Virus record (IMG/VR): IMGVR_UViG_3300000956_000002
Span: 16,253-80,252 of that record
Length of the DNA: 64,000 nt
Source of the DNA: a virus
Strand: one strand, 5' to 3'
The notes below the pieces were generated by a model. The model was not told the DNA's origin. It did no database searches and was given only the letters and a program-made list of their open reading frames with translations. The position numbers were made by a program, and so were the translations under genes. This document shows positions 3,081-63,950 of the stretch, piece after piece. Each line of letters opens with the position of its first letter. Within the stretch, counting starts at the first letter, position 1.

Positions 3081-3093
3081 CCGTGAGTTACGG
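3081..3093. promoter_or_regulatory. Operator palindrome upstream of the capsid gene
   Basis: CCGTGAGTTACGG, a member of the 13-bp CCGT-N5-ACGG palindrome family found upstream of most operons here. It lies 26 bases before the capsid start codon at 3120, preceded by a partial copy (TTTCCGTATT). It probably controls late-gene entry into the capsid operon. Confidence 0.55.
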
Positions 3094-3119
3094 ATGAAAC
3101 ATTTGACCTTAAACTTGTT

Positions 3120-4859
3120 ATGGATACACCGGTAATTTCCGATCGCTTCACCGAGCAATGCGCGGTGGTTTACGCGAACAACAACGACACCTGCGGCGGG
3201 GCAACGCGGGAAAACATTGCGTATTTCACGCCCGACCTGATGCAGACGATGTTTGCGCCGGGTGGTTTGTGGGCGGAGATGGATGCGTGGTTCGAGACGG
3301 CCTTCGAAATGAAGGCGTGCGGCACGCGCACCTACTCGATGTATGACTGGATCATGGCCAACACGCGCCAAGGCGGCGCGCAACTCCTGCAAAAGATCAA
3401 GCAGGGCCCAGGCAAATCACTTTTGCAGCCGTTCATCCTCGCGCGCCAAAGCTCGATCATCAATGACGACTACTGGAACGTCTCGAACGGCTGGCAGCAG
3501 AACGCGTATTCCGCAGGATCGACCGGGCCGTTGACCTCCGACGATTTGGCGGAAGGCGAATCGACTGATCGCGTCGTCCGCGTGACATCTTCGAACGGCA
3601 TTGAACTGGTGAGTAACTGGTTCAATCCCGGCATGCAGCAGTTCATCGTGACGAACGAAAGCGACACGGTGGGCATCGGCATGTGGCAGGTTTTGGCCAG
3701 CGCTGCGGCGACCAACGGCAGTTACGTCGATGTGTTGCTCCGCGACATGAACGGCGGCGCCACCCAATCCAACTACGATTCTTCGCCGACCTCCGGTTTG
3801 CTGGTGCGTTCGACGAATAACGTCAATGACTTCGAAAAATGGTGCCACAACGAGCCGAATTACGACGGCCGCAAGCTGGTGCCGATGTGGATCAAGACGT
3901 TCCGCCGTTCACGCTGCGTCGATTCCGAATACCTGAAGTTTTACGCGCGGCTCATGTCCGGCGCGAACAAGGCGTTCAAGGAATTCGGCGACCTTCCGCT
4001 GGCCGAGCGCAATGCCCAGGACGAACTGCATCACAAGAAAGCGTTCGTGAACAACTTCTTCTTCAGCGTGCCGTCGGATGCGAACCAGAACATCAACGAC
4101 TGGCAGGAATTGGAAGAAATCCGGACGCCCAGCGGTTACTCGGTTGACCCCGGCACGGGCGGCAAGTTGATTGCGTTGCGAGCCGAAAACATCGGTGTGC
4201 TCGAACAACTCCGGCGCTGCAATCGCGTGCGCGATTTGCAGAACCAACCGCTGAACTTCTACGAGTTCCTGAACGAGAACTATCGCATCATGCGCAGTCG
4301 CGGGAACAACCCTAAGAAGGGCGGGGCGATGGAAATCGACTGGTACACCGATAGCACGACCGCGGCGAACATTCATCGTGGCGTCATCGCGTATTGGAAG
4401 AAGGAGACGCAGGAAACCCTGGCGCTGAACCACGAGATGACCAAGACGAACACGTTCGGGATGAAATATCGCTCCTACAGCGACTTCGTTTTCCCGACGG
4501 GCTTGACCATCAACATCATCGTGAACGACGCGTTCGACGATTGGGTTAATGCCGGCGGTCCCCGCATTTTGACGGCGTTGGATCTCGGCGCCAACGGGAC
4601 GGTTTACTGGCTGCAAGTGGCGTCCAACCGCAAGCAGTACACGACCGGAGAAGTCGATAACCTGGCGAAGATCGATCGCGAATGGGCGTGTGTGATGGAA
4701 AGCGTCAGCGAAGAGCGGACGTTGCATTCCGACACTGGCGCTGTGGTTGTCGAATGCCCGCAGGATCAACTTTGGATTTGGGGCATCGCAAACGAAACGC
4801 CGGATGTGACCGGTGTGAACACCGAGAACGAAACGCCGTACTACCACGACTTGATCTAA
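3120..4859 (+). CDS. Major capsid protein (probable)
   Basis: 579 residues, ATG at 3120. It follows the scaffold-like gene and is followed by two hairpins, as abundant capsid genes often are. The sequence is a balanced globular protein without signal peptide or low complexity, and large for an HK97-fold capsid, so an insertion domain is possible. It contains an N-terminal segment (LMQTMFAPGGLWAEMD) and a long central domain rich in Asn, Asp and aromatic residues. No direct family motif was recognised, so the call rests on synteny, size and composition. Confidence 0.65.
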   Translation: MDTPVISDRFTEQCAVVYANNNDTCGGATRENIAYFTPDLMQTMFAPGGLWAEMDAWFETAFEMKACGTRTYSMYDWIMANTRQGGAQLLQKIKQGPGKSLLQPFILARQSSIINDDYWNVSNGWQQNAYSAGSTGPLTSDDLAEGESTDRVVRVTSSNGIELVSNWFNPGMQQFIVTNESDTVGIGMWQVLASAAATNGSYVDVLLRDMNGGATQSNYDSSPTSGLLVRSTNNVNDFEKWCHNEPNYDGRKLVPMWIKTFRRSRCVDSEYLKFYARLMSGANKAFKEFGDLPLAERNAQDELHHKKAFVNNFFFSVPSDANQNINDWQELEEIRTPSGYSVDPGTGGKLIALRAENIGVLEQLRRCNRVRDLQNQPLNFYEFLNENYRIMRSRGNNPKKGGAMEIDWYTDSTTAANIHRGVIAYWKKETQETLALNHEMTKTNTFGMKYRSYSDFVFPTGLTINIIVNDAFDDWVNAGGPRILTALDLGANGTVYWLQVASNRKQYTTGEVDNLAKIDREWACVMESVSEERTLHSDTGAVVVECPQDQLWIWGIANETPDVTGVNTENETPYYHDLI

Positions 4860-4875
4860 GTCGGAACGAATCTTT

Positions 4876-4910
4876 ACCGGGACTGCTTCTCACAGGCGGC
4901 AGTCCTCGGT
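4876..4910 (+). terminator. Hairpin after the capsid gene (attenuator-like)
   Basis: ACCGGGACTGC pairs with GCAGTCCTCGGT across a 12-base loop, starting 17 bases past the capsid stop. The T-run after it is weak (GGTTTAAG), so partial readthrough into the next gene is likely. Confidence 0.45.
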
Positions 4911-5456: not shown

Positions 5457-7019
5457 ATGCAAACCTACCAACAATTCACGACGAAGCTGCGGGGCAGAAT
5501 CTGGCCTGGGCGTGAGCCTGCGAATTTGGTGGCGCCGCATGACGCGATGTTTCAGACGGCGATGCTCGAACTCCAGAAGTGGGTGCCGTGCCTGAAGGAA
5601 TACAACATTTCAACTTACGAAAGCGCGGACCGTGAATGGGATGGGGCCAAGACGCGCGTGCAGATGCCGAATGGGCAGATTCGTCGGGTTTACACCGTGG
5701 CCGGCGGAACTGATCGCTGGCGGGATCGCGTTTTTTATCGGTCGTCGAATGTCCGGGAGATGGAGTGCTGGGCGCGCAATTTGATGGACGCCGAGACGCC
5801 GCCATTGCCGGATTTGGGTTACGGCGTGCGGGCGGAGAGCGAATCCAGCGATTGGGAACATGGCCGGGCGCGTCAGGGGATTTGGGCGCATTACCGCGGG
5901 AAGCTTTACATGGCGCCGTGGTTGCAGACCTACGAATTGCTGGTCGTTGAATGGGACGGCGAGAAGCAAGAATGGCAGGCCGGCGATGGGGTTGATCCGC
6001 GCATTTGGCGACACGATGCCGAGATGGCGGTGGAACTTTACGTCAAATGGCGGCACGAACAGAGTTACGGCGACATTGGTATTTCTCGGGAAATCAAAGC
6101 GACGTTCGACCGTGTGCTGGCAGATTTGATGCACTGGTGCCGGGAGAATACGCGCCAGCGGCAGGATGAAATTTGCGCGTCGGAAGGTGGGACGATCGAT
6201 CCGCGTCCGGCGGGCACAGATGATTTGTCGGAGGACGATGAGGATCCGACAGAGAATACGACGGATGAGGATGAAGTGCTGTTCAACGCGGTCGGCGATT
6301 TAGGCGACGACACAGAAGCGGCGGCGGCGGTGGCTGAAGCCGTCATTGCCGATAATCCCGAAGTTTTCATTGCGCTCGGGGACCTGACTTACAACGACGA
6401 TTTCGAGGCAGACTTCGGCGTCAAATACAGCGCGCTCATGACCGGTAATAAACTGATTCCAGTGCCGGGAAATCACGACGTTATCGATGGGAGCCTCAAT
6501 ACGTTCTCAGAATACTTTGCGGATTTCGTGGGGAACAATGGCCGGAATTACGAAGCGACGATCGGGCCTTGCCACATCCTTGTTTACAACACGGAGGACA
6601 CGGACGGCATCGATCCTGATTCAGCCCAGGCGGAATGGTTGCGGGCGAAACTGCTGCTTTCGACAGCGCGCTGGAAAATTGTGGTGATGCACAAGGCGCC
6701 GTATTCGTCGGACTCGACGCACGGTTCGAACGCTGATTTGCAATTCCCGTGGGAGGATTGGGGGGCAGTGCCAGATGTCATCATAGCGGCTCACGCGCAC
6801 GATTACGAACGGTTGGAGGTTGGTGGCGTTCCGTATTTCGTCGTCGGGACCGGCGGACATTCGCTTCGAGATTTCGGATCGGCGGTAGATGGCAGTCAGT
6901 TCCGGGACAACACGCACTACGGTCGGCTCATTGGGGAAGTGAATTGCGATCGCATGATTTTGAGTTTCAAGAGCGTGGACAATGAAGTCCTAGACTCACT
7001 GACGATCACGAAGGAATGA
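5457..7019 (+). CDS. Adaptor-like virion protein fused to a calcineurin-type metallophosphoesterase
   Basis: 520 residues. Residues ~1-250 form a Trp-rich domain placed where head-tail adaptors sit (after capsid). An acidic linker (~250-275, Ser/Glu/Asp/Thr) leads to a metallophosphoesterase domain whose motifs are all visible: GDLG (~279), GDLTYN (~308), GNHD (~338), VMHKAP (~411) and AHAHDYER (~445). The GDLTYN and HAHDYER forms recall purple acid phosphatase-type enzymes. Metal-binding residues appear intact, so phosphoesterase activity is expected. The fusion would place the enzyme on the virion. The adaptor role of the N-terminus is inferred from position only. Confidence 0.75.
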   Translation: MQTYQQFTTKLRGRIWPGREPANLVAPHDAMFQTAMLELQKWVPCLKEYNISTYESADREWDGAKTRVQMPNGQIRRVYTVAGGTDRWRDRVFYRSSNVREMECWARNLMDAETPPLPDLGYGVRAESESSDWEHGRARQGIWAHYRGKLYMAPWLQTYELLVVEWDGEKQEWQAGDGVDPRIWRHDAEMAVELYVKWRHEQSYGDIGISREIKATFDRVLADLMHWCRENTRQRQDEICASEGGTIDPRPAGTDDLSEDDEDPTENTTDEDEVLFNAVGDLGDDTEAAAAVAEAVIADNPEVFIALGDLTYNDDFEADFGVKYSALMTGNKLIPVPGNHDVIDGSLNTFSEYFADFVGNNGRNYEATIGPCHILVYNTEDTDGIDPDSAQAEWLRAKLLLSTARWKIVVMHKAPYSSDSTHGSNADLQFPWEDWGAVPDVIIAAHAHDYERLEVGGVPYFVVGTGGHSLRDFGSAVDGSQFRDNTHYGRLIGEVNCDRMILSFKSVDNEVLDSLTITKE

Positions 7020-7774: not shown

Positions 7775-8764
7775 ATGAGACTGATTCAAAAACTTATTTT
7801 GTGCCTGGCTATTGCTGTTCCTGTGCTCGGGGACGGGCCAAAGATTGCAGGCCGAGAATTTACTGAGTGGTTGAACGACTTTTTGGACACAAGTTCGTTG
7901 CTCCCTAAAAACGAAGGAATCGCAACCAGCTTGACAGTGGTCGGGTCAATTACCAATTTCGCGAAAGCTGAGATTACAACCACTACTCTATCGGGTTCGT
8001 CGATCACGCTCGATTGGACTGCTGGCGGAGAATACCGGCACACAATGGCCGCGGACACAACGTTGTCGTTCGCAAACTCCACCGGAACAAACCGAACAAT
8101 CGTTTTAAACGCCTACCCTGACGGCACACATAGCTACACTTGGCCTTCAGGGGTGATTCCACTGACGCTTACAAATCAACCTTTGTCGCAAGGTTTAACC
8201 AAAATCTATTTCGACAGGATAGATGGGACAAATTATTTGAGCGTCTCCCCGGAGCCACGCAAGGACAGGATGCTATTCACTGGACTTCAATTCAGTGACG
8301 GGATCGGTGCGGTCCCAAACACAAACGATTACACAGCCGTCACATTCATGCACTACAAGTTCAGTGGCACTGCGGCGACGAATGCGAATTACGGCGTTTA
8401 TCCAATTGTTCCGGTCCCAGACAATTTGAACACCAACGTCGCTCTGCGCGCGCGCTTGACGGTTCGGTTGAGCGGAACTGACACTGACCCATCTACTTGG
8501 AACTTAGGCGTTCAAAACGTATCAAATTCAGCGAGCGGGTCATTTGGAGGCGCCGGAAATTGGGTGTCAATCACCATGTCTGGAGATGCTTCTGGAGCCG
8601 CGAACGATCTTGAACGAAGTAGCTGGGTGACCCTTACCGGATGGGCGGGCGCGTTGACTGCTGGGCAATCGATGTTCGTTGTCCTTAACCGGAATGGGGC
8701 AAGCGACACTTCGAATGTTGGCGTCTGGGATGTAAACCTCGAACTGGAGTACGGCATCCAATGA
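7775..8764 (+). CDS. Secreted or virion beta-rich protein with signal peptide
   Basis: 329 residues. The N-terminus (MRLIQKLILCLAIAVPVLGDG) is a typical Sec signal with cleavage near residue 20. The rest is Thr/Ser/Asn/Gly-rich and beta-stranded, like fibre or lectin-type domains, with no catalytic motif recognised. It overlaps the next gene by ATGA (8761-8764), so translation is coupled. First of three consecutive genes with signal peptides, odd for a virion module. Either a fibre part exported before assembly or an extracellular moron protein. Confidence 0.65.
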   Translation: MRLIQKLILCLAIAVPVLGDGPKIAGREFTEWLNDFLDTSSLLPKNEGIATSLTVVGSITNFAKAEITTTTLSGSSITLDWTAGGEYRHTMAADTTLSFANSTGTNRTIVLNAYPDGTHSYTWPSGVIPLTLTNQPLSQGLTKIYFDRIDGTNYLSVSPEPRKDRMLFTGLQFSDGIGAVPNTNDYTAVTFMHYKFSGTAATNANYGVYPIVPVPDNLNTNVALRARLTVRLSGTDTDPSTWNLGVQNVSNSASGSFGGAGNWVSITMSGDASGAANDLERSSWVTLTGWAGALTAGQSMFVVLNRNGASDTSNVGVWDVNLELEYGIQ

Positions 8765-9630
8765 AAAAGCTTTTCCTTATATTTTTGCTGGTTTTGATAC
8801 CGACAGTGATACACGGCTCCACCCGCGTGATTCCGTGGCCCAATCTGCCTATAGGGTCGCCTTTGTTGCTCGATAAGGTCGATTCCGCTAACCTCTACTC
8901 TGCTTACTCAGTTTCGAGAAAACTTCGGAACGGTTATTCTGGGGCAGCATTTCAGGTTCGACGTGCTAGCGACAACACGACGACTAACATTGGTTTCATT
9001 GGAACTGCTGTCGATACGGCAGGGCTTCTCGCATTCTGTTCCGGAACGGACGGGTTTTTGCCCATCGTTTACAATCAAGGACCAGCTTCAAGTCGTGACA
9101 TCGCATCCGCCTCCGGAAACCAACCAAAGATCGTAACCGCTGGCGTTCTTGAAACTGGCAACAACTCGCGGCCTTGCATGGTCTTTGATGGGTCGGATGA
9201 TTTTTTGAACCTCACAGCGACGATCGCTCTTCCAGTCAGCTTTTATATCGTGGTGGCAAACACATCGACTGTGAACATTGACACGATTATTTACGGAGGT
9301 TCAACGACACGCGCCAGCCTGAAACAGCGCACCGGGCCGCTGTTCGGATTGAATTCTGGAACAGATCAAACCTACTCATCGTACGTAAACGGGAATTGGT
9401 ATCTTGTCCGGGCGACATTCCAGTCCGGAAACGAAGCGTTTCGGCTTAACGCAAACTCCGAGGACGCAACCAAGGATGCAGGATCGAACTCCGTAACTTC
9501 GCTGGGATTTGGGGCAGCGACCGCCACTGGCCAGTTTAAGAGCAGCGAATTGATTTACTTTAACCAAGGAACCCACGCCGATGAAGCTACTATTTTGGCA
9601 GATATTAACGCTCACTACGCTCTCTATTAA
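8761..9630 (+). CDS. Exported arabinofuranosidase B/LamG-like protein
   Basis: 289 residues, start overlapping the previous stop. Signal peptide MKKLFLIFLLVLIPTVIHGS. The mature part has SAYSVSRKLRNGYSGAAF, QVRRASDN, then FCSGTDGFLPIVYNQ and a GSDDFLNL segment. This order matches the N-terminal jelly-roll of GH54 alpha-L-arabinofuranosidase B (ArabFuran-catal domain), also seen in phage tail proteins. Whether the catalytic acids are kept cannot be judged by eye. Likely binds or trims polysaccharide outside the cell. Confidence 0.6.
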   Translation: MKKLFLIFLLVLIPTVIHGSTRVIPWPNLPIGSPLLLDKVDSANLYSAYSVSRKLRNGYSGAAFQVRRASDNTTTNIGFIGTAVDTAGLLAFCSGTDGFLPIVYNQGPASSRDIASASGNQPKIVTAGVLETGNNSRPCMVFDGSDDFLNLTATIALPVSFYIVVANTSTVNIDTIIYGGSTTRASLKQRTGPLFGLNSGTDQTYSSYVNGNWYLVRATFQSGNEAFRLNANSEDATKDAGSNSVTSLGFGAATATGQFKSSELIYFNQGTHADEATILADINAHYALY

Positions 9631-11878: not shown

Positions 11879-11957
11879 TATAAAAATATAACAATAGTAA
11901 GGACGGTTAATGGTCGGGTGTTCAGGATAGGCGAGCCGAGTTTTTCTCATTGTTTTT

Positions 11958-11970
11958 CCGTAAAATCCGG
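11958..11970. promoter_or_regulatory. Operator upstream of the tail beta-helix gene
   Basis: CCGTAAAATCCGG, one mismatch from a full palindrome, between TTGTTT and TTACTG boxes, 17 bases before the ATG at 11988. It shares its layout with the other operon-leading copies. Confidence 0.55.
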
Positions 11971-11987
11971 GTTACTGAAGAATTCGT

Positions 11988-17352: not shown

Positions 17353-17389
17353 TCCAATCCACGATTGACGGTCCGATGGGTGAACGTTA

Positions 17390-17401
17390 CCGTAATTACG
17401 G
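17390..17401. promoter_or_regulatory. Operator before the lipoprotein gene
   Basis: CCGTAATTACGG, a perfect 12-bp version of the family palindrome, 13 bases before ATG 17415. TTGACG at 17365-17370 with a 17-base spacer to TACCGT makes a promoter-like pair; the operator would cover the -10 region. Confidence 0.5.
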
Positions 17402-17414
17402 AATACGGATAAGT

Positions 17415-19656: not shown

Positions 19657-21132
19657 TTAATCTCCGTACGGCGTGCGGGCGTTCGATTCGTATGGAACAT
19701 TCGAAACTTTGCTGGCGCTCTCGTAGCGTGTGAACGATTTCAGGAACGTGAGATTCACGTCGCCGGTTGGACCATTGCGCTGTTTGGCGATCAAGAGGTT
19801 GATCGGCACGGCTTCGATCTCCTGCGGCTCATCGGCGGCATCTTCGTCCTCTTCGCGCTGCGCTTTGTAGAGCAAGCCGACGAGATCCGCATCCTGCTCG
19901 ATGGCGCCGGACTCGCGAAGGTCTGAAAGGCGTGGCTTCCGGTTTTTGTCTTTTTCGAGTTCCCGGTTGAGTTGGGCGAGGACGATCACCGGCACGTCGA
20001 GTTCTTTAGCCAGCGCCTTAATGCCGTTGGATATGATCGAGATTTCCTGCTGGCGATTGTCGAACTTTTTTCCCGTTCCTCCGTTCAAGAGTTGCAGGTA
20101 ATCAATGACGAACAGTTTGATGCCATGCTGCTGATACATTCGCCGGGCCTTCGCGCGCAGTTGCATGATGGACAGGCCGGCGGTTTCATCGAGATAGATT
20201 GGGGCGTTTGCTATTTTTCCGGAGGCCCCGGTGAGTCTTGGAAAGTCGCGTTCAGCCAAAAATCCATCGCGGACGTTCCGAAGGTTGACTCTGGCGCGCG
20301 AACAGATCGTCCGAACGATCAGGGACTTGCTGGACATTTCGAGGCTGAAGATTCCAACAGGCTTTTTTTCTTCGATGGCCACGTGTTCGGCGATGTTCAT
20401 GGCCAGGGCGGTCTTGCCCATCGACGGCCTACCAGCGATGACGATCATCTCTCCGCCCTTCAAGCCGCCGGTCATTTTATCGAAGTCTGGAAATCCAGTT
20501 CCGACTCCCATCAGCGCGCCGGCATTTTGGTGATATTGCTCAATCTCGTTGATAGCCTCGTGCGTTATAGCCTTGATCGATTTATCCACTGAAACGATGC
20601 GGTCCTGGCTGATCTCCAGAATATTCCGCTCTACTTCGTCCAAGAGAGCTTCCACGTCGCCTTGGTGCTCGTAAACCTGCCCCACGGCTTGCGTGCAGGT
20701 CTGGATGACCTTCCGAAGCAGGAACTTCTCGCGCAGGATGTCGGCGTAGTACTCGAGGTTGGCAGCCGACGGGACGCAGTTCATCAGCCCGGCGATGTAA
20801 GGCATGCCGCCTAAGGCTTCCAGTTGGTTGCGATCCTTCAGGTATTGACCGACGCCGATGGGGTCGATCAACTCGCCTTTATCCTGCATCTCTGCCAGCA
20901 CGTCGAAAAGCGCCTGGTGGCGCATGTCGTAAAACATCTCGCTGCCGCGGCGCAGTTTGTCGATCGCCAGCGGCATGCAGGTCTTAGGTTCGAGCAGAAT
21001 GGACCCAAGGACGCCCTGCTCGGCTTCGATGCTGTGCGGTGGCAATCTGTCCGCAACCTGAGGCATTGGTAGCGGGGATGAATCGCGGCGGCGCCGGCGG
21101 GGTTGCTCAAGCATTTGGTCGGGGTCCATCAT
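19657..21132 (-). CDS. dnaB: Replicative DNA helicase, DnaB type
   Basis: 491 residues, about the usual DnaB length. N-terminal helical domain with PPHSIEAEQGVLGSILL (~31-47), linker, then the RecA-like core: Walker A GRPSMGKTA (~234-242), the motif SLEMS (~263-267), Walker B FVIDYLQLL (~341-349) and QLNRELE sensor region. Unwinds DNA 5'-3' ahead of the phage fork in place of the host helicase. Start overlaps the initiator-like gene by 26 bases; a second ATG lies three bases further in. No intein. A host origin for this gene is likely given its similarity to bacterial DnaB. Confidence 0.95.
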   Translation of the reverse strand: MMDPDQMLEQPRRRRRDSSPLPMPQVADRLPPHSIEAEQGVLGSILLEPKTCMPLAIDKLRRGSEMFYDMRHQALFDVLAEMQDKGELIDPIGVGQYLKDRNQLEALGGMPYIAGLMNCVPSAANLEYYADILREKFLLRKVIQTCTQAVGQVYEHQGDVEALLDEVERNILEISQDRIVSVDKSIKAITHEAINEIEQYHQNAGALMGVGTGFPDFDKMTGGLKGGEMIVIAGRPSMGKTALAMNIAEHVAIEEKKPVGIFSLEMSSKSLIVRTICSRARVNLRNVRDGFLAERDFPRLTGASGKIANAPIYLDETAGLSIMQLRAKARRMYQQHGIKLFVIDYLQLLNGGTGKKFDNRQQEISIISNGIKALAKELDVPVIVLAQLNRELEKDKNRKPRLSDLRESGAIEQDADLVGLLYKAQREEDEDAADEPQEIEAVPINLLIAKQRNGPTGDVNLTFLKSFTRYESASKVSNVPYESNARTPYGD

Positions 21133-22608: not shown

Positions 22609-22792
22609 TTCAATGAAACAAATCGCCCTTCAAAGCGCCGAACCTCACGCGGGCTGACAACCGGCCTGACGGCCTGAAATTTACCCAATTCGGCGCCTTG
22701 AAAGGCGGCTTTGCTATCCGGTGTCATTTATCATGGCAGCGTGAGATGCCGACCCCACGGTGAGAGTTTATTGTTTTTTACGCAAGGTTTTT

Positions 22793-22812
22793 CCGTCAAA
22801 TTCGGTTTACGG
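22793..22812. promoter_or_regulatory. Overlapping operator copies upstream of the replication operon
   Basis: CCGTCAAATTCGG (22793-22805) overlaps CGGTTTACGG (22803-22812). The 214 bases between the HNH start and the methylase stop hold no convincing gene. A hairpin at ~22697-22712 (CGCCTT/AAGGCG) may end the methylase operon. Confidence 0.45.
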
Positions 22813-22822
22813 AAACTTCTGG

Positions 22823-23533
22823 TCATGGGTTTTGGGGTTGGGTGCCTGAAAGAATTCTGAATGCAGTTGCAGCCACGATTGGAACTTGTCCATTTCCTGA
22901 TGCCGTAAGGCGGTCCAGTCGATTGGCCACCCCATCAACCATTCGCTCAACTGTGGGTTCTGCTTTCGACCCACATACGTTCCACGGCGTAAGGCTTTCT
23001 TCCTGGCGTTGGAACCGCCGCAATTGTCCCGGTCGCTCGCCCGCGGGGTAGGCCAAGACGAACAATCGTCGTCGCACATGTGGAGCACCAACGGAACATG
23101 CTGAAAACACTCCCCATCGCGCATCCATCCCCATTCCGGCAATGTCAGCAAGGACTCGGTTGAGTCCTCGAATAGCAAGGTCTGACGAGTTTTCAATGAA
23201 CGCGAATCGTGGTCGAACTTCGCGAATGATCCGCGCGAACTCTCCCCACAATCCTGAACGTTCACCTTCGATTCCGACACGGCATCCAGCCGGGCTGATA
23301 TCCTGGCATGGAAATCCGCCGCAAACGATATCAACGCCGCGCCATGGCTTTCCGTCAAAGGTTCGAACGTCGTCCCAAATCGGGAACCATGGCAGGATTC
23401 CGTCTCGCTGGCGTTGGAGGAGGATTTGGCGGCAGTAAGGTTCAATTTCGACCGCACAAACAGTTCGATGCCCGAGAAGCATTCCGCCGAGGATTCCACC
23501 GCCGCATCCTGCAAATAGGTGTAACTCATTCAC
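22823..23533 (-). CDS. DNA (cytosine-5) methyltransferase
   Basis: 236 residues from GTG 23533, which overlaps the previous stop; a longer read to 23605 is out-of-frame sequence of that gene. Motif I FAGCGGG (~7-13), catalytic loop GGFPCQ (~72-77), motif VI variant ENSSD in place of ENV, motif VIII PHVRRR and a final GNGQVP block (motif X-like). Short target-recognition region, as in phage solitary C5 methylases. Probably protects phage DNA from host restriction. No cognate nuclease is adjacent. Confidence 0.9.
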   Translation of the reverse strand: MNELHLFAGCGGGILGGMLLGHRTVCAVEIEPYCRQILLQRQRDGILPWFPIWDDVRTFDGKPWRGVDIVCGGFPCQDISPAGCRVGIEGERSGLWGEFARIIREVRPRFAFIENSSDLAIRGLNRVLADIAGMGMDARWGVFSACSVGAPHVRRRLFVLAYPAGERPGQLRRFQRQEESLTPWNVCGSKAEPTVERMVDGVANRLDRLTASGNGQVPIVAATAFRILSGTQPQNP

Positions 23534-29745: not shown

Positions 29746-29790
29746 GTTTTCGAAAGTGACTACGGCTTACGGACCAAAAAGAAATGACTT

Positions 29791-30023: not shown

Positions 30024-30040
30024 ATCGTTAAACGGACTTT

Positions 30041-40900: not shown

Positions 40901-43900
40901 GAGAGGGTGTCGCCGACGTTGTAGCCGCCCTGTTGACGTTGCCATGAGGCGGCGAGTTCCTGGCCAACCCGTTGCTGATAGATGCGGTTGGCTTCAACGA
41001 TGGAGCGGCCGCGGAGATTGTTCCACGTCAGTCCATGGCTTTTCATGGCCGCCCGCTGAGTCATCGGCAGCGTGTGGACGGCGCGTTCGAACCAATCCCG
41101 CGACCATTTGTGCATCTGATCGGCGCGATTCAAGACCGACCGAGCCTGGCCGACGAGGCGCGAACCGGACTTCGAGATGGCGGATCCGATAATGGAATAC
41201 GCCTGTCCCCACAACGGCGACTGGTTTTCGGGCATGATGTGCTGGAGCCCGCCGTAGTAGTTTTTGAGCAGTTCGAGGTTGTGCGCGTGATAACGGCGGG
41301 TGGGATCGTCTGCGTTCTGCGGGTTGGCCAGCCAGTTTTCGAGGAAGCCGATGGCCTTGCGTTGTTCATCCCAGCGTTGGCGGAGATGGACGACGTTGCC
41401 GTCGAGGACTTCGTGGCCGATGCCGATGGTGGCGCCGGACATGGGCAGCGGCGGGGCGCCGTTCACGCCGGGGACGACCGGGAGGGTGATGGTAGAACCC
41501 GCGTCGTCGGCGCTGCGGAGGGCTTTGCCGGGCTCAGGACTGCCGCCCCATGAGGTTTGATCGTTGAGGATTTCCTTCCGGAGCGCCTGGAATTGAGGAT
41601 CGGCTTTGATCCTGGCGGCGATTCCGCCGGCATCGACGGCTGCCAACAGGGGTTCGAGTTCGGACAACATCTCTTCTTCGAGTTCTTTGAAGGCGAACTC
41701 GGCGGACATGGCGTTGCGGACCTTACGTTCGCGATCGCGCATCGCCCGGCGGACAGTGGCCACCGGGTCTTTCGAGAAGTCGTCGGCCAACTTTTTGGCC
41801 ATGCCGTTGAGTTGCGCGCGCAAGCCGGTTTGCTTGGCGAGATTGGCAGCTTGGATTCTGGCCGCGAGCTTCGGTGACTTGGCGAGGATGTAACTGGCCC
41901 ACTTGAGGAGATTCTGATTGTTGAGCGGTTGGCCGGTGGAACGTTTGATGTCCTTGTAAATTTCGAGGATGGATCGTCCGCCGCCTTGGCCGGTGAATAG
42001 CGCGTTCTGCCCCTCGGGTGTTGACGACAGGGCCGTCACCATGTCGTTGAGCGTTTGTTCCATGGCGACGGTGGATTCGCTGGCCTCGCGGATGCCGCGG
42101 AGTTCGCCCTGCAACACCGCCATGTCGCGATCGGTCTTGGCTTCCTGCTTTAGCGCCGCGGTCGCTTCTTTGATGGCAGAGTCGAACACCGCTTTGGAAT
42201 TCGTGAGGATGGCCTGCGCGGCTTGATTCTGCGCCGCCTTGGCTTGCACGCGGGCGATGAAATCCTGGAAATGGCGCGAGGTCAGTTTCTTGAACGCCTT
42301 CGAACTGTCGTCGAGAACCTGCTGGAGAATTTCTTCGAACCGCAGGATGGATTGGCCACCTTCGCCGGCAAGGCGCGCGCGACGATATGGGTCGTTGGCC
42401 AGCCGGGCTTTCATCTGTTGGTAGGTTTCGCGACCTTGAGGATTCAGTTGCTCGCCGATGTCGCGAATGCCTTTCCAGTTGCGGTAATCGAAAGCGTTTT
42501 GGACCTTCGGATCGGCGGTGTTGACGCCGAATTGATCGAGGATGTTCGTCACGTCGGCAGCCTGGGCGAGTTGCGATTCGCCTTCGATCTGCTGCTCCAT
42601 GGCGGACGACGCGAGGTTGGCGGCGTTGATCGCCTCGTTGGCATCGGTGACGAATGTGCCGCGTTCAATCGCGCGCTCAAACGCCGGTTGCGCATCATAC
42701 TTCTGGCGTCCTTCGAGGATGTCGCGGTAAACGCGTTCGCTGGCCGTCGGGTCTTTGAGTAAACCTTTGAGCCCTTTCCATAATTGCGCGAACCATTGTT
42801 TGATGCGGTTGATGATGCCGGGTGAGCGTTGTTCGAGAGTTTCCTGAGCCAGTCGATCGCCGAAAATCTTGGCAGCGTACTCGTCGAGGTTGATGAACGG
42901 GTAGAGGTCCATCGACCAGCCGGGCTCTCTGACGCGGAATTGGAATTCAACGCTGCTGAGTTTTCCGTCGCGGATTTCTTGAGGCGCGTTCGCCGGCATT
43001 TTGGCCAGGCGTTCAGCTTCGAGCGCGGCGCGGTCAGCTTCTGGCAATGATTGAATGAGGATGTGAAAGATTTCGTGCGCCGCAGCATCGGGCTTTGCTC
43101 CTTCAGCCAATCGCACGAGGCTTCCCAGCATACCGCCTTTGAGCATCACTTGCCCTTGGAACCCACCGCCAATGTAACGACGGAGTTCGAGAGTAAGCGG
43201 ACCGGAGTTCAATCCGCTGGCCTGAAAGATTTCGTGCGCTCGGAGAAGGACTTTCTTCGTCTGCGGACTCAAGGCGGAGGCATTGACGAGAGTCGGGATG
43301 TTGGCATCGGTTGCTCTGCCGATTGCCACCGATGGGCCTTGCGGCGGTGGAGTATTGACAGGTTCTGTGACGAGAGTACCTTGGCTTCCTTCCGCCTTCA
43401 GGGGAGCCGTTTGGGGCGTCGATCCTCGGGGTGACGGAGCAGCAGCACCAAACTGTTGGCTGTTGCCGTTTGCTCTCCGCATTGTTCCCTTGTCGATATT
43501 CAACACCTGTTCGGAAGTGAGCGTCTGCGTTCCAAACTTCGGGCCGTCATCGATCGTCACCGACTGCAACATTGTCTCATCATCGGGACGCGTCTTGACG
43601 TTCGTGACTGTGAAGCGCTCGCCTTGAATCTTGAACTTATCGCCGACGGAGAGTTCATCGCTGACAATCGGCTTGGTGTTCTTGCGCTCCTTCGCGGCGA
43701 CGGTTTGGAATTTGGCATCCTGAGTGGCCTGCTTTACTTCGGAATAGAAAGCCTCGCGGTCGGACTTCCGTTTCTTCGGCGCCTCGATGATTTGATTGAG
43801 CAGCGTTTCAGGATCGATCGGGCGACCAGTGTTTTGCTCAACGCCTTGCGCGGCCACGTCTGGAGCCGATGCGGTTGGACTATCGACGAACAATTTGGGC

Positions 43901-45960: not shown

Positions 45961-45989
45961 ACTGAGGGTCCTATACTCTGAATTGGCAC

Positions 45990-46018
45990 TTGACGCCATC
46001 CGTAAATTACGGAATAGG
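45990..46018 (+). promoter_or_regulatory. Promoter with operator in the spacer (small RNA candidate)
   Basis: TTGACG (45990-45995), a 17-base spacer ending in the perfect palindrome CCGTAAATTACGG (46000-46012), then AATAGG (46013-46018). The same palindrome is 40 bases upstream of the giant gene's ATG on the other strand, so one operator may control both directions. Confidence 0.55.
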
Positions 46019-46024
46019 TTACGC

Positions 46025-46151
46025 GTCCGAACAATCGGTGTGGAAGCCGAGGGTAAGCGACCGGAACGGTTCAGATGAAATTTTGGGTAACTCCAAACCC
46101 GCTCGAAAAACGTCTTACCACGTCTTCCACCGAGCGGGTTCTCTTTTTTTT
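46025..46151 (+). ncRNA. Candidate small RNA with intrinsic terminator
   Basis: Downstream of the operator-promoter lies the box CAATCGGTGTGGAAGCCGAG (46032-46051), a small CCG-GAA-CGG hairpin, and a terminator AACCCGCTCG (46096-46105) with CGAGCGGGTT (46131-46140) followed by eight T (46144-46151). No credible reading frame fills it. The box recurs with one change at 49001. Transcript length about 125 bases; target unknown. Confidence 0.55.
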
Positions 46152-46506
46152 CCGCGTTTGGACCGTGAGCCGTGCCGCGATATAGGTTGCACGAACTCCG
46201 GCGGCCCAACTTCGGTTGGTGCTGGTGAAGGCGTCGGCGAGGACGAGAACTCCCCGGCGTGGACGACAAGGAAAACTTCAGTCCTGTGCGGCTGGCGGGA
46301 TGAGTACAGCTAAGAGTGCAGAGTAACGCCTGCATCTCCTGCCGGATTATCGGCGTACGACGCCACAGGATTGAATTTTTCTTTGCCTTCCGACGTTGGC
46401 TTTTAAGCCTGCACTCCATTTAGGAGGGGTAGGGGTGGTTGTCTTATCGGGTTCGTTTTCTTTTGGCTTTCCCTCTCCCGCCTCTTCTGTCAGTAGCTTT
46501 AGGTGT
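46152..46506. other. Intergenic stretch without recognised gene
   Basis: About 355 bases beyond the terminator. Frames on both strands are open for some length but give Arg/Ser/Pro-rich products without normal protein composition. A short GGCGT-ACG-ACGCC hairpin lies near 46350. I see nothing else. Confidence 0.4.
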
Positions 46507-48022: not shown

Positions 48023-48928
48023 TTAGTAGGTTTGATCCATGTAGGGCGCGAGGTAATCGAGGAAGTCGATTCGCCGCCGCCAAGCTGCTTCCGGCGTTTC
48101 GTAGAGGTTGTTGCCGTAATCGAGATCGGCCAAGCGACCGAGATTGTTGAGAGCGCCGGTCTCGAATTGCTGATTGGCTTGAATCGGAAGCAGAGAGCGT
48201 TGCGCCAAAGTGTTCAGGATATTCGCGCGCTGGCCGACAGCAGCATTGCGCTGGCCGGTGAGCCACGTGAGATCGTTTCGACCTTGTTGCGCCGCGCGTC
48301 CGGCATTCCCGGCGCCAATGGCGTAAAGCTGTTGGGCGAGGACACGATCGAGATAGGACGAATTACCGCCGCCCGCGCGCGCCGCGTTGTAACTGCGTCG
48401 AGCCTGACCGGCCGCACGTTGGGCTGCGATGTTCGCCGCCGCTTGTTCCTGGCGATTCAATTCCACCAAGCGCGCTTCGATGGAGTCGCCCCCCGTGCCG
48501 TAGATTCGATCAACGCTGGCGACTTCCTGATCGGCTGCGGCCTGCGCCTTTGGTTGGCCACTGAGAACCTGGGCTGCGTAATCCTTGAGACTTTGATTCG
48601 CCGCTGTGGTGTTCGCGGTGTTCGTTTTGAAAGCGGTGGTCAACGCAGATCCGACAGCCGGGGATTTGGGAGTGCTAACCATTGAAGGCTGAACAGAAGC
48701 ACTGCCATTGGCTCGCGCTGACACACCGCCGTTGAAGAGGCTTCCGAGATTGAATCGAGGTGGAGCGGTTGGAGAGAATGTCGGCATCGGCACGGAAGGA
48801 GCGCCGCCAACGCTCAAGCCTGGAATGTAGCGCGAGTTCAATGCGCCAGACGGAGTGAATTGACGCAGGAAATCTACTGCTGGCGATTGGGATTGGTCCA
48901 AATCTGATAAGGCCACGTTCCATCCCAT
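48023..48928 (-). CDS. Small ejection/internal virion protein (301 aa)
   Basis: ATG 48928. Low-complexity Ala/Gln/Asn/Ser helical protein (AANIAAQRAAGQARRSYNAA, NTANTTAANQSLKDYAAQ), much like short internal core proteins of podoviruses. First gene of the leftward ejection operon, directly behind an operator at 48946. The longer frame to 49162 crosses the operator and is unlikely. Confidence 0.6.
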   Translation of the reverse strand: MGWNVALSDLDQSQSPAVDFLRQFTPSGALNSRYIPGLSVGGAPSVPMPTFSPTAPPRFNLGSLFNGGVSARANGSASVQPSMVSTPKSPAVGSALTTAFKTNTANTTAANQSLKDYAAQVLSGQPKAQAAADQEVASVDRIYGTGGDSIEARLVELNRQEQAAANIAAQRAAGQARRSYNAARAGGGNSSYLDRVLAQQLYAIGAGNAGRAAQQGRNDLTWLTGQRNAAVGQRANILNTLAQRSLLPIQANQQFETGALNNLGRLADLDYGNNLYETPEAAWRRRIDFLDYLAPYMDQTY

Positions 48929-48945
48929 ACTCCTACGTGGCTTTT

Positions 48946-48958
48946 CCGTCAATTCCGG
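48946..48958. promoter_or_regulatory. Operator of the ejection-protein operon
   Basis: CCGTCAATTCCGG, 17 bases upstream of ATG 48928 on the minus strand. TTGACG of that strand overlaps it and could pair with TATGGG at 17 bases. Confidence 0.5.
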
Positions 48959-48963
48959 ATTTG

Positions 48964-48992
48964 CTTGACAGGTGTTCCGTATATCGTAAAGT
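48964..48992 (+). promoter_or_regulatory. Rightward promoter with operator in the spacer
   Basis: TTGACA (48964-48969), a 17-base spacer region containing CCGTATATCG (48977-48986), then TAAAGT (48987-48992). The best consensus-like promoter in the window. Expected start near 48999, just at the shared box. Confidence 0.6.
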
Positions 48993-56463: not shown

Positions 56464-56670
56464 TTATTCTGTTGGAATGTCCGGGCAGTTGAGCTTGGCG
56501 CACAAATCGATGGCGAACTGATCGCCGAGTGTCCCGTCCTCGTTCGTTTCGTAGCGCAAAATGAGGTAGTCGTAATAGAGTGATTTCAAATACTTTCGGA
56601 AGGCCACGCAAAACGTGTCGCTTGGGCTGATTACCAGCGCTGCATATTGCGACGGCGTGATCGGACACAT
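56464..56670 (-). CDS. 68-residue tail-operon leader protein
   Basis: Helical with Tyr/Leu (FRKYLKSLYYDYLILRYE) and a C-terminal CAKLNCPDIPTE. First gene of the leftward tail operon, behind operator-like copies. Role unknown. Confidence 0.55.
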   Translation of the reverse strand: MCPITPSQYAALVISPSDTFCVAFRKYLKSLYYDYLILRYETNEDGTLGDQFAIDLCAKLNCPDIPTE

Positions 56671-56681
56671 AACTGCCTTAT

Positions 56682-56722
56682 CCGTCAGATTTCCGTAAAA
56701 GACAAGTCGAAACGGATTACGG
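56682..56722. promoter_or_regulatory. Degenerate operator cluster before the tail operon
   Basis: CCGTCAGATTTCC (56682-56694), TTTCCGTAAAA and GGATTACGG (56714-56722). On the minus strand TTGTCT with a 17-base spacer to GATAAG makes a promoter-like pair. The copies are weaker than elsewhere. Confidence 0.4.
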
Positions 56723-56724
56723 AA

Positions 56725-58452: not shown

Positions 58453-60120
58453 TTACTCTTCTAAGAAAGGTGGCGGCGATGGATCAGCAGACTGCGGCCC
58501 AATCGGAACATCCAAGCATCCATACGCGTACCCGCCAGTGCTCGGGTCGATCGTGGTCAAATTTTCAGAATCGAAGTCTTCTTCAAAAATCACTTCGTCG
58601 TCGGTTTCGTTTCGGCAAACGATGTCGTCAATCAGCGTCCCGATGTTGAACTGCGTCCGAATCGCAATCTGCTCGATGATGATCGGACCTTCGAAGTCGC
58701 CATCCTGAGTCCATTCGAACGAGGTTTCTTCAAAGTCCTGACTGCCGAATATCGGGTCCGGCTCGAACACGTTATCGCCGCAGGTGATGCGTATTTGATA
58801 GCTGGGCGTTGTCGGAGGGTTGATCGGATTTAAATTCGTGCTGCCGGCTTGCAGGAGCGTGATGCTGTAATCCTTTCCGTTTTCCCACTGGAAATCTTCT
58901 TTGGTCGTGAGTCGTCCAAAGCCGAGATCGAGGCCAGTTTGTCCATGACCGCTTGGGCCGGTACCCTGAAGATCGACGTAGCCGCCATGTTCTGGACGAA
59001 CGTCGAAAAGCCCAAATCCGACGTAATCCGGGAATGACGCTGGCCGTCCGCTGTCGTCCAACGGATTCCGCGGATCATCGGGAAAGATTTCCTCAATCTC
59101 CTCGCCTTCGGAATCGCGAATGACTCTCGACGCGTTGAATTGATTCCAACCCGTGTAATTCAGTTGAGCCATTGGCGCCGTGCCTGGCTCCGGTGAACAG
59201 CCGCCAGAGCATAGGAAAGATTTCAATCCGCTCAACCAGCCGAGGATGTCGCCTTGAACGTCCTCATAGGCGCTGAGAAGAAAACCGCTCGACGCGATGG
59301 CGAACAAATCGCTGAACCAATTTGATTCCGGCGACGTGCGATTCCATGCGCGTGTGGCGACAACGCAGATGAATCCACCACTTTCCCGAAACGCCTGGGC
59401 GATTGGCTTCGGATCATCGCCAATCCATTGACCGTCGGTGAACAGAACAATGACGCGAACGCCGTCCTGGCCTTCGAATCCTTCGATCGCCTCACTTAGC
59501 GCATCGGCGAGATTCGTTCCACCCGTGCTGATAGAGATCGTGCTAATGGCCGATTGGAGTTCTTCGGCATCCTGAGACCATGTTTGGACCTGTTCGTAAT
59601 CATCGTTGAAAACGGAGACCGCAGCTTGGTCCTTCGAAAAATTAACAGTATCGCAAAAGTCGCGAGCGATGGATTTACTGAATTGCAGTTTGGTTCCGTA
59701 GGCGCCGGAAAACGATTGGCCCATCGACTTCGAGTTATCGATCAGGATTCGGAAAAACTGGTTGGTTTCCTCGCAGTTGGCGACGACATCCAATTGCGCT
59801 TGAGCGGTGAGATTCTGCCAAGCGACGGCGATATTGGTTTGGCCGGCAGAAGCGCCAGTGGCCAGACCGTCGTCGTTTACCTGGGCGACACCGCTGTTCG
59901 AACTTTCCCACGATAAGCCTTGTTCGAGCACGGTTTCAACACCATTGGCGCGCAGGACAACGGTGTATTGGAGGGTGCCGCCGACTTGAATAAGCCCTTG
60001 TTCTGGAGTCAGGATGAGAAGCGTGTAATTCCGGCATTCGTCTGGGTGCGCCGCGCGATACGCTGGGTCTGCGCAATTGGAATCAATTGGGGGCGTGTCA
60101 TCAGAACAACCGGCGCTCAT
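58453..60120 (-). CDS. Von Willebrand factor A protein with Ig-like (BIG2) domain
   Basis: 555 residues. A Cys-rich N-terminus, then a BIG2-type domain (~40-110, VGGTLQYTVVLRANG...SGVAQVNDDGLATG), then a VWA domain from ~120 with FRILIDNSKSMGQS (MIDAS DxSxS), SISTGGTNLADAL and VIVLFTDGQW. The C-terminal ~240 residues are beta-rich. VWA domains bind ligands through a metal ion; here it may be an adhesive tail or head fibre. First gene of the operon that also encodes two glycosyltransferases, which could modify it. Confidence 0.8.
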   Translation of the reverse strand: MSAGCSDDTPPIDSNCADPAYRAAHPDECRNYTLLILTPEQGLIQVGGTLQYTVVLRANGVETVLEQGLSWESSNSGVAQVNDDGLATGASAGQTNIAVAWQNLTAQAQLDVVANCEETNQFFRILIDNSKSMGQSFSGAYGTKLQFSKSIARDFCDTVNFSKDQAAVSVFNDDYEQVQTWSQDAEELQSAISTISISTGGTNLADALSEAIEGFEGQDGVRVIVLFTDGQWIGDDPKPIAQAFRESGGFICVVATRAWNRTSPESNWFSDLFAIASSGFLLSAYEDVQGDILGWLSGLKSFLCSGGCSPEPGTAPMAQLNYTGWNQFNASRVIRDSEGEEIEEIFPDDPRNPLDDSGRPASFPDYVGFGLFDVRPEHGGYVDLQGTGPSGHGQTGLDLGFGRLTTKEDFQWENGKDYSITLLQAGSTNLNPINPPTTPSYQIRITCGDNVFEPDPIFGSQDFEETSFEWTQDGDFEGPIIIEQIAIRTQFNIGTLIDDIVCRNETDDEVIFEEDFDSENLTTIDPSTGGYAYGCLDVPIGPQSADPSPPPFLEE

Positions 60121-60134
60121 GGCAGGTTGGTAGT

Positions 60135-60147
60135 CCGTAATTTACGG
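60135..60147. promoter_or_regulatory. Operator of the VWA-glycosyltransferase operon
   Basis: CCGTAATTTACGG, identical to the central copy at 30041, 14 bases before ATG 60120. On the minus strand TTGCTT directly precedes TTCCGTAAATTACGG, the same layout as at 11952. Confidence 0.6.
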
Positions 60148-60182
60148 AAAAGCAATTCGAAAGTGAACCTCGCCTTTAATTT

Positions 60183-62258: not shown

Positions 62259-62452
62259 TTGTCGTCCACTATCTCTGTTCCGATGTTTTGGCCACGCTTA
62301 TTCAAGATTGTTCTAAGCCCGAACTCCACCCATATTCTCCCGTAAACTTTGCGGTTCTGCGCTGGGTAAGTGTCGTATTCAGTCGTTCCAAAATTAATAG
62401 CACTGATTACACAACTCCTCCCGTTTTCATCTGTGACTTTAAAGCCGATCAT
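62255..62452 (-). CDS. 65-residue beta-rich protein, unknown
   Basis: Strand-rich sequence (GFKVTDENGRSCVISAINFG), coupled by ATGA to the integrase stop and to the next gene. Unknown. Confidence 0.55.
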   Translation of the reverse strand: MIGFKVTDENGRSCVISAINFGTTEYDTYPAQNRKVYGRIWVEFGLRTILNKRGQNIGTEIVDDK

Positions 62453-63759
62453 GGTATCAAAACACCCGCCTTCTTCCCTTGTCCGCCCTTGGGTAATTCG
62501 ATTGGTGTGTTGCGGACTTTATCCGGCGTGAGCATTTCAAATTGTTCGCCCGTCTTGCGCCGCATGATGCCGCGATAGTGATCGTGCAGAATCTTCGGCG
62601 AGTTCCCGAGCATGCCAGCGACTTTCGTTTCGTTGTCGTCATATTTCCACATCAGGAACGACGCGCAGGTTTTACGAAGGATGTCTTGCTCCCATTTGAT
62701 GCCCGCGCGTTTGCAAAGCTTCTTGCGATGGCGCCGAATGCACTGGCGGACGGTGCGCATGGTTTTCTCGACTGCTTCGCCACGGCCCAGGCGGTCGCCT
62801 TTGGCTTCGCATTCGAAGATGTATTCGTATGGATATTTCGCAGTGGTATCGGCAGCCCCTTCAACTATTGGCTTCAACCACGCCATCAGTAACGGCTCGA
62901 TCTCAAAGCACCGACGCTGCCGCGTTTTACTCACGCCGTCCTCGATCACGATTTCACCGTCGTCCAAGTGAATGTCGCGCCACCGCAGCTTCTCCAACTC
63001 CTCCGGACGAATGCCGCCGAACAGCCCCAGCACAACGTAGGGCAGGAATTGTCGATCCGTCACACGACAAACCCAAAGCAGTTTCTCCGCTTGGTCCGGC
63101 GCGAGAATCACCGGCGTCTTGGCATCGACATACGGCATCTCGACGTGGTTCATCGGATTGGCCCCGGCTTCCAAATACGTGTTGTTCTTGCACGCCAGCG
63201 TGAACATAGCCTGCAATCGCGCGATCACCCCAAGCAGCGTTGAGCCCTGGGCTTGACCTTTGCCGCCCGGCCCTTTCTGGTTGGCGAGGAAATCCGTGAT
63301 CATGGCCGGCGTGACCTGATGGAGTGGCATCGAATCACGGCCGCGCGCAAATCGATCGAGAACAGATTTAAGGCTCGCGAGGTATCTCGGCCGCCGATTG
63401 CTCGTGGTCTTGGTCTGCATCGTGATCGTGATCATCTCGCGCAACGTGATCGTCCGATGTTTGGCTGCCCCACTGTTCGCCTTGTAGAACTCGGTGGCGC
63501 CACGGATCGTCGTGCCCAGATTGCGAAGCTCGGCTGCGCACACCATGATATCCACCTGCTCATAAGGTTTCAGCCGTGACCAAATGACACCGTGCTCTCT
63601 GTATTGGAATTTCGTCGATTCTTCAACAGACTCGGCCTCAGCCCTTGTCTTAAACCAAAGGCGCTCCCGCTTGCGCACGCCTCCCTTCGGCGGATGGTTG
63701 ATCACCAGTTCGAATCCAGGCTTCCCGCGGCGCTTTGTTTCGATGATATGGGATTTCAT
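62449..63759 (-). CDS. int: Tyrosine recombinase integrase
   Basis: 436 residues from ATG 63759 (a longer read to 63804 is less likely). N-terminal arm/core-binding parts (~1-190) precede the catalytic domain: FGGIRPEELEKLRWRDI (Arg box I), SKTRQRRCFEIE, DILRKTCASFLMW (box II, with Asp where HxxR normally has His), and GNSPKILHDHYRGI (His and nucleophile Tyr). Drives integration at the adjacent tRNA-Ala. It heads an operon in which every downstream gene down to 60183 is joined by overlaps, so cargo and integrase are transcribed together. Confidence 0.92.
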   Translation of the reverse strand: MKSHIIETKRRGKPGFELVINHPPKGGVRKRERLWFKTRAEAESVEESTKFQYREHGVIWSRLKPYEQVDIMVCAAELRNLGTTIRGATEFYKANSGAAKHRTITLREMITITMQTKTTSNRRPRYLASLKSVLDRFARGRDSMPLHQVTPAMITDFLANQKGPGGKGQAQGSTLLGVIARLQAMFTLACKNNTYLEAGANPMNHVEMPYVDAKTPVILAPDQAEKLLWVCRVTDRQFLPYVVLGLFGGIRPEELEKLRWRDIHLDDGEIVIEDGVSKTRQRRCFEIEPLLMAWLKPIVEGAADTTAKYPYEYIFECEAKGDRLGRGEAVEKTMRTVRQCIRRHRKKLCKRAGIKWEQDILRKTCASFLMWKYDDNETKVAGMLGNSPKILHDHYRGIMRRKTGEQFEMLTPDKVRNTPIELPKGGQGKKAGVLIP

Positions 63760-63820
63760 GGGGTATTTGTCCGTTGTGCTACCGTTTGCTACCACTTTTT
63801 TCAAGCAAAAAATTACTGAA

Positions 63821-63950
63821 TACGGAAATAAACGGAAACATTTGAAGTCGATAGCACAGCTTTGGGATGTGCGGCTCAGAGCGGAAACATTTGGCCCCGG
63901 CTACTTTTGAGTGGATTCGCCAATGAAATCGGGGTTTCCGTAATTTCTGA
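63821..63950. promoter_or_regulatory. Attachment flank with operator-like repeats
   Basis: Between integrase start and the tRNA end lie AATACGGAAATAAACGGAAAC (near 63818-63838) and CCGTAATTTCTGA (63938-63950), incomplete copies of the operator half-site. They may control int or serve as integrase arm sites. The crossover itself is expected in the tRNA 3' end just to the right. Confidence 0.4.

Follow-up and report, generated by a model that had tools for sequence, protein, structure and literature searches.

A phage-wide set of putative operators built from the heptad TCCGTAA in an 80-kb temperate phage, and its candidate regulators

The stretch analysed here (the window, 64,000 nucleotides) comprises bases 16253–80252 of the 80,252-bp virus record IMGVR_UViG_3300000956_000002 and carries a set of repeated sites built from the heptad TCCGTAA, among them a symmetric dyad whose 13-bp form is CCGTAAWTTACGG. 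Position and enrichment together support a phage-wide site set standing before genes of different kinds, and we conclude that these sites are very probably the dispersed operators of one phage-coded transcription regulator, to be sought in a switch region of two divergent regulator-like genes. A set of this kind, private to one phage and spread over its genome, tells which operons form the regulon, directs attention to the switch region and reduces the choice between candidate regulators to a simple binding test. To our knowledge few phages of Verrucomicrobiota, the likely hosts, have been studied. Positions are those of the window unless given for the contig.

The dyad and its heptad unit

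The exact 13-bp dyad is present at 30041, 46000 and 60135, as the first-pass annotation of this DNA had reported, and a fourth copy lies outside the window at contig position 12534; all four are outside called genes. No exact copy arose in any of 100 order-3 Markov simulations of the contig, and the 11 sites with at most two mismatches compare with a simulated mean of 1.5 and a maximum of 5. Among all spaced palindromes with 6-bp arms this dyad's family is the most repeated, with four copies, compared with three for the best family in 30 simulations. It is true that the copies at 30041 and 60135 are identical and that the copy at 46000 is their reverse complement, but this adds nothing, since it is implied by a dyad with W at its centre. 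At three mismatches the signal is diluted, with 22 sites in the window compared with 12.5 ± 3.2 in shuffles, so that several of the near-copies listed earlier cannot be judged singly from the 13-mer. Eight of these (3081, 11958, 22793, 29791, 29813, 30553, 48946 and 63938) do match it with two or three mismatches; the remaining three, at 17390, 48977 and 56682, depart from it at more than three positions, yet contain TCCGTAA-like heptads. The moderate excess at three mismatches would suit an origin by chance or base composition, but with no exact dyad in the simulations and TCCGTAA first of all heptamers tested, that explanation is refuted for the whole set and has next to no likelihood. The motif is real, and beyond chance for the set as a whole.

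Counts of k-mers, in which no dyad is assumed, identify the underlying unit. TCCGTAA is the heptamer most enriched in intergenic DNA, with 23 intergenic and 4 coding copies (p ∼10^-15), and TACGGA is the top hexamer by the same measure (37 intergenic, 15 coding). The gene set on which these counts depend came from our own simple caller, which called 88 genes and missed others, including 8761–9630 and 30583–31056. With the called genes 14.5% of the sequence is noncoding; after filling the gaps with further open reading frames (ORFs) this falls to 9.8% or 8.8%, and the counts become 21 to 6 and 20 to 7 respectively, TCCGTAA still ranking first. Under the stricter filling it also ranks first of 630 heptads of the same composition, the next having 11. 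The scarcity in coding DNA that the first-pass annotation had implied is therefore borne out at the level of the heptad (4/27, or 6/27 under stricter filling), and 14 of the 27 exact copies touch the 75-bp zones before called starts, which cover 8% of the contig. A position-weight matrix at a loose threshold (8.5 bits) gave 78 sites, of which 50 were in called genes, and the k-mer counts were used instead.

Heptads occur alone, head-to-head with a single base separating them, as in the exact dyads, or in short arrays, and they combine in preferred arrangements. With the 70 intergenic near-exact heptads as anchors, partners stand head-to-head at +8 in 10 of 63 cases (p 10^-7.5), head-to-head at +15 in 7 of 66 (p 10^-4.2) and in tandem at +7 in 8 of 135 (p 10^-3.0); over the 102 tests made, the two head-to-head spacings remain significant. 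A control with 147 anchors in coding DNA gives at best 10^-1.1 for these spacings, at head-to-head +8. The +15 pairs are of three kinds. Those at 11957, 22792 and 30552 keep a heptad matching at four of seven positions in the +8 register; those at -11203 and 3073 consist of a tandem pair plus a head-to-head partner; and those at -12510 and 9424, the latter inside ORF 8761–9630, have neither the +8 heptad nor the tandem form. In the clusters listed here at most three units follow one another at +7/+8 steps, and none forms an array of at least four contiguous units. We conclude that the dyad is a certain arrangement of heptads, that heptad arrays are a likely one, and that the tandem +7 arrangement is suggestive.

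Position of the sites relative to genes

At least two near-exact heptads lie within 70 bp upstream of 13 of the 42 putative operon heads, and at least one heptad (six or more of seven positions) does so at 17 of the 42, compared with 12% of random coding windows. The earlier claim that nearly all operons are under control is thus too strong. The 13 heads are those of TerL and its divergent neighbour, the genes at 3120, 11988, 17415, 29368, 29820, 30094, 48023, 56464 and 58453, the 2658-residue ORF and the integrase gene. They correspond to 11 distinct regions, two pairs having sites in common, and a twelfth region precedes the HNH gene at 30583, which is absent from the called gene list. That sites precede genes of quite different kinds, as first proposed, is supported by the operon of 29820, TerL with its neighbour, the gene with a pectate-lyase domain, the integrase, the von Willebrand A (VWA) protein and the giant ORF.

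In the switch region, the exact dyad TCCGTAATTTACGGA at 30040–30054 is common to the divergent genes 29820–30023 and 30094–30483, its centre being 24 bp from the start of the former (site 30041). To the left of this pair, a degenerate dyad at 29790–29804 (centre 52 bp from the start; site 29791) and tandem heptads at 29760–29773, both on the minus strand, lie upstream of the phrog_204 gene 29368–29745, and the site at 29813 overlaps the 3′ end of 29820–30023. To the right, on the plus strand, a putative operator at 30552–30583 has a head-to-head +15 pair with a weak inward heptad between, plus a further heptad, and stands directly before the HNH gene 30583–31056 (24 bp from centre to start for site 30553, by arithmetic).

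Three putative operators on the plus strand occupy the left part of the window. The site at 3073–3094, upstream of gene 3120, combines a tandem +7 pair with a head-to-head partner at +8 (33 bp from centre to start, for site 3081); that at 11957–11978, with a weak reversed heptad inside a +15 pair, precedes the 1355-residue gene 11988 with its pectate-lyase-like domain (24 bp, site 11958); and that at 17389–17409, one forward heptad followed by two reversed, precedes gene 17415 (20 bp). A cluster at 22792–22813 has the same form as that at 11957 and falls at the 3′ end of the minus-strand gene 22807–23529, with no called start codon nearby.

The sites further right are read on the minus strand. 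The exact dyad at 45999–46013 is 46 bp upstream of the 2658-residue ORF if that begins at its called start, 45960, and inside the ORF if the start is at 46419. Upstream of 48023–48928 are the dyad TCCGTCAATTCCGGA at 48945–48959 (24 bp, site 48946) and tandem heptads at 48976–48989. A heptad cluster at 56681–56723 precedes 56464–56670 (29 bp, measured at 56693), and the exact dyad at 60134–60148 is 21 bp upstream of the VWA gene 58453–60120. Before the integrase gene, tandem heptads at 63813–63826, not among the sites listed earlier, are nearer to the gene than the heptad with a degenerate partner at 63937–63951, and 185 bp separate the site 63938 of the latter from the called start of the gene. 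Most of these distances fall within the 13–45 bases before a start codon first given; those of 29791 (52) and 46000 (46) do not, and neither do the sites at 29813, 22793 and 63938.

Candidate regulators and alternative explanations

Two divergent genes for regulator-like proteins flank the exact dyad at 30040. On its left, 29820–30023 on the minus strand heads a leftward gene run and encodes a 67-residue protein that resembles a ribbon-helix-helix (RHH) protein by eye and has weak family matches; of the 384 genomes of the inferred host class, two encode proteins that match it at 37% identity (E 0.007–0.008), and both of these proteins weakly match RHH families. On its right, 30094–30483 on the plus strand encodes a 129-residue XRE protein that matches Pfam HTH_3 above the cut-off (E 4.6e-6) and phage repressor families in PHROGs. 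The first-pass annotation had named one or other of these products as the regulator; its XRE protein is a clear HTH_3 protein, whereas the RHH identification goes back to weak matches which the structure model does not support. Sequence alone does not decide between the two, and heptads in tandem or in threes tip the balance slightly towards the RHH-like product because omega/ParB of plasmid pSM19035 uses 7-bp units in tandem and head-to-head. We tentatively take the RHH-like product as the regulator, with rather less than even confidence.

Its action would be silencing rather than activation. RHH dimers could each cover one heptad and cooperate on adjacent heptads, as omega/ParB does, and a regulator bound near the start codon, over the promoter, would block the initiation of transcription. 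One protein might in this way keep the lysogen's early, packaging and accessory operons silent. The switch dyad would serve autoregulation and the early operon together, so that the regulator limits its own synthesis, and the divergent XRE product may be its partner or its opponent. The fullest form of this proposal, a graded master control by the RHH-like protein in which the number and arrangement of copies of a 7-bp word (dyad, tandem or triple) at about twelve promoters grade the affinity, and early, packaging, integrase and accessory operons are released from repression in a set order, is an unlikely one.

A number of observations weigh against the RHH-like product as regulator of this set. 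Its match to ParD (E 0.012) is below the Pfam cut-off, PHROGs and NCBIfam give no match, and a single-sequence model is helical with a predicted template modelling score (pTM) of 0.29 and finds no significant match in a fold search. A third helix-turn-helix protein, the less likely candidate HTH_17, is also present, because of which we lowered our estimate for the RHH assignment slightly. The tandem +7 spacing fails correction for the 102 tests, an unpredicted tandem spacing of +26 is about as strong (8/140, 10^-2.9), and the coding control has its own strongest distance at tandem +24 (10^-2.1). When the anchors are restricted to the 23 exact intergenic heptads, +8 is the sole non-trivial strong peak, each dyad being counted twice; the peaks at +9 ‘direct’ and -1 ‘inverted’ in that analysis are, by our reading, self-overlaps of the dyad and were set aside. 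The commonest form of site is the plain dyad, which would suit an XRE dimer equally, and at 25 of the 42 putative operon heads the 70 bp upstream are free of near-exact heptads. Five host-class regions bearing DUF2303, a family also encoded by the phage, contain no dyad within one mismatch, and the searches for relatives turned up none with a diverged site.

The principal alternative is that the XRE product is a CI-like master repressor acting as a dimer on the 15-bp dyad throughout the genome, in which case single and tandem heptads would be weak or decayed sites and the RHH-like product a Cro/Arc-like early gene, whether with these sites or with others. The family matches of the XRE protein and the classical divergent layout of the switch speak for this, as does the fact that the dyad is the strongest form of site (four exact copies and the +8 pairs at 10/63), and we consider it a genuine possibility, if short of a probable one. 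A fixed dimer, however, leaves the +15 head-to-head pairs (7/66) and the tandem pairs unexplained, and the structure model of the XRE protein is of very low confidence. Two other DNA-binding proteins of the phage, the HTH_17 protein of 105 residues (28234–28551, minus strand, in the leftward gene run headed by 29820–30023; PF12728, E 7.5e-7), recognised as one further DNA-binding family when 58 more proteins were scanned as a set, and the FtsK-gamma protein 31049–32443, match their families above the cut-off, but neither gene adjoins a dyad. Many HTH_17 proteins act as excisionases, FtsK gamma recognises a different sequence, and either would be a most improbable regulator of this set.

Alternatively, the same sites might bind an activator, or be promoter elements recognised by some factor of phage or host, and turn operons on together. 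Most of them are 20–55 bp upstream of start codons, as promoter DNA would be, and sigma70-like scores are not clearly better in the 15 site-bearing regions than in the 27 others (one-sided p 0.08); the offset from site to best box, which had first been given as a place in the promoter spacer for several sites, is variable. Against this, the switch genes, TerL, the integrase and accessory genes have these sites in common, and no family of sigma factor or RNA polymerase was found among 34 proteins scanned singly or 58 scanned as a set (Pfam, and the best 25 of 39 families in PHROGs); activation seems to us improbable. The stoperator-like action first suggested, with bound sites stopping elongation within operons as in phage L5, receives some encouragement from sites in short same-strand gaps (3120, 17415, 29368 and 56464). 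The L5 sites are, however, asymmetric and oriented with transcription (PMC6550527), whereas those found here are symmetric or mixed in direction and crowded just before operon heads, so that this mode of action is very unlikely. An RNA element, in which the dyad forms a hairpin in the 5′ leader and controls translation, is less likely still. The exact dyads at 60135 and 46000 can form a 6-bp stem with a 3-base loop (z -2.3 and -1.6 against shuffles), but three other leaders fold at shuffle level (z -0.8, -0.5 and 0.0), tandem heptads give no hairpin, and one dyad is common to two divergent genes.

The phiC31 repressor acts on symmetric, conserved inverted repeats at many places in its phage genome. 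Dispersed operator sets of phages are already known for P1 C1, SPbeta MrpR and L5, and the present set is one more, in an orphan phage. In SPbeta a 15-bp motif at ten promoter regions of one prophage is bound by one master repressor, MrpR (PMC10516654), a likeness in that the motif is scattered over one phage genome, but MrpR has a tyrosine-recombinase fold, whereas the candidates here are RHH-like or XRE and the heptads vary in arrangement. P1 C1 is one repressor with 22 operators over the genome (PMC8546580); these are 17 bp and asymmetric, whereas ours are symmetric or arrays. Cluster A phages such as L5 have genome-wide sites for one immunity repressor (PMC6550527), mostly away from promoters, whereas those described here stand mostly just upstream of operon heads. 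Closest in its unit is omega/ParB of pSM19035, each dimer of which binds one 7-bp unit, two units in tandem or head-to-head being bound strongly (PMC9499535). The phage sites would resemble it in their 7-bp units, head-to-head and perhaps also in tandem, over putative promoters; the two differ in that omega uses 7–10 consecutive units and works with ParA, whereas the phage sites have two or three units with one base between head-to-head units. General family scans of the 34 and the 58 phage proteins named above turned up no ParA family. The RHH protein F55 of the archaeal virus SSV1 regulates lysogeny from tandem repeats at early promoters and at its own promoter (PMC5569661), with another sequence and at four promoters, whereas the RHH identity is only a candidate in our case. 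A search of the open-access literature on prophage repressors of the RHH type whose operators span the genome found, judging by title, no paper on the subject. If the RHH assignment holds, the phage set would be a possible variant beyond the known dispersed-operator sets, and RHH control of lysogeny, which is known in an archaeal virus, would then also exist in bacteria, as a heptad code spanning a phage genome.

Occurrence elsewhere and gene content of the phage

The operator set belongs to the phage and not to its host lineage, since genomes of the inferred lineage contain the dyad no more often than chance would give and each viral stretch with it has a single copy. Of 20 such genomes (∼106 Mb together), three have the exact dyad, once each, and two have a reversed control pattern; in 384 genomes of the host class it occurs once in each of 11 and twice in none, with the control pattern in 18. 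Seven genomes are common to the two sets, including the three with the dyad. The check on host DNA outside the element that had accompanied the first proposal, run on genomes of the inferred host lineage, therefore favours it. In a viral collection the 15-bp dyad was found in 36 stretches with one copy each, in a scan that may have left out records near the window's own; whole-record searches covered 17 of these records.

Seventeen viral records with a related 17-mer have one site (at most one mismatch) in 16 cases and two in one. The surroundings of 15 such loci were considered, of which all but L012, L015, L017 and L020 yielded a result. Of the resulting 11 loci, eight have the site within an ORF of at least 100 residues, as for chance matches. 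The other three are L008 and L019, where the site lies beside the same ORF with a start codon 26 bp off, and L014; near the sites in L010 and L018 no regulator was recognised by eye. Three viral stretches with a tandem 17-mer have 4–5 heptads in 13–15 kb, compared with 1.6–1.8 expected, and no dyad, and tblastn of the called proteins against them gave a single 25-residue match only. One of the 36 stretches with the 15-bp dyad (L229, 303–653), with six near-dyads (at most three mismatches) in a tandem array of 48-bp step, is apparently unrelated and probably a coincidence.

Pattern-based scans of the viral collection with the XRE, TerL and RHH-like proteins found no close relative, and a search with DUF2303 gave one 25% match. 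A search with DnaB led to 66 viral loci; neither the XRE nor the RHH-like protein matches any of these at E 1e-4, and an exact dyad or a group of three near-dyads (at most two mismatches) is absent from all of them. In annotated phages TerL has no match and all DUF2303 matches are below 60% identity. The neighbourhoods of two RHH-like homologues and one XRE homologue (L211–L213) contain no near dyad, L212 having two at up to four mismatches, and one of the five DUF2303-bearing regions of the host class (G203) has 12 copies of TCCGTAA in 60 kb compared with 7 of a control heptad.

The same 46 bases occur at both ends of the record (contig 1–46 and 80207–80252), from which the phage genome is probably circular and complete at ∼80.2 kb. 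The phage is temperate, judging from its tyrosine recombinase (integrase) gene 62449–63804 on the minus strand (phrog_1, E 8.8e-24; PF00589, E 2.8e-9), with a called start at 63759 and the longest ORF from 63804. In the integrase both arginines and the tyrosine are retained by eye, and the usual histidines are seemingly replaced. TerL is matched weakly, just under the cut-off (PF04466, E 8.2e-5), and family searches also identify a DnaB helicase, SSB, DUF2303 and phrog_204. Relatives of DnaB (19657–21132, minus strand) in species genomes have 57–69% identity among the best 80 of 416, and the titles of these 80 comprise 70 of Verrucomicrobia, Limisphaerales or Pedosphaera, four of Akkermansia, four ‘bacterium’, one of Proteobacteria and one of Klebsiella. 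From this one gene the host is probably a member of Verrucomicrobiota. The identity of up to 69% to verrucomicrobial DnaB-like proteins, among the matches listed, suggests that the gene may have been acquired from a host.

The giant ORF 37984–46419 on the minus strand encodes 2658–2811 residues and has a raised G+C content; PHROGs gives no match to it, and the one in Pfam is at the level of chance. A giant virion RNA polymerase with hairpin promoters, considered in view of the 2658-residue ORF and the dyad stem, was set aside without a supporting family match. To the right of the switch, 31049–32443 (plus strand) encodes 464 residues with the FtsK gamma domain at the N-terminus. Among the 58 proteins scanned as a set are anti-restriction and anti-defence families, namely ArdA, the CBASS inhibitor Acb3, a Dam methylase and a Lar-like protein. 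A calcineurin-like phosphoesterase is encoded at 5457–7019 on the plus strand and the VWA-domain protein at 58453–60120 on the minus strand, and the left arm (L005, 5307–6347, plus strand) carries a phosphoadenosine phosphosulfate reductase-like gene (phrog_424).

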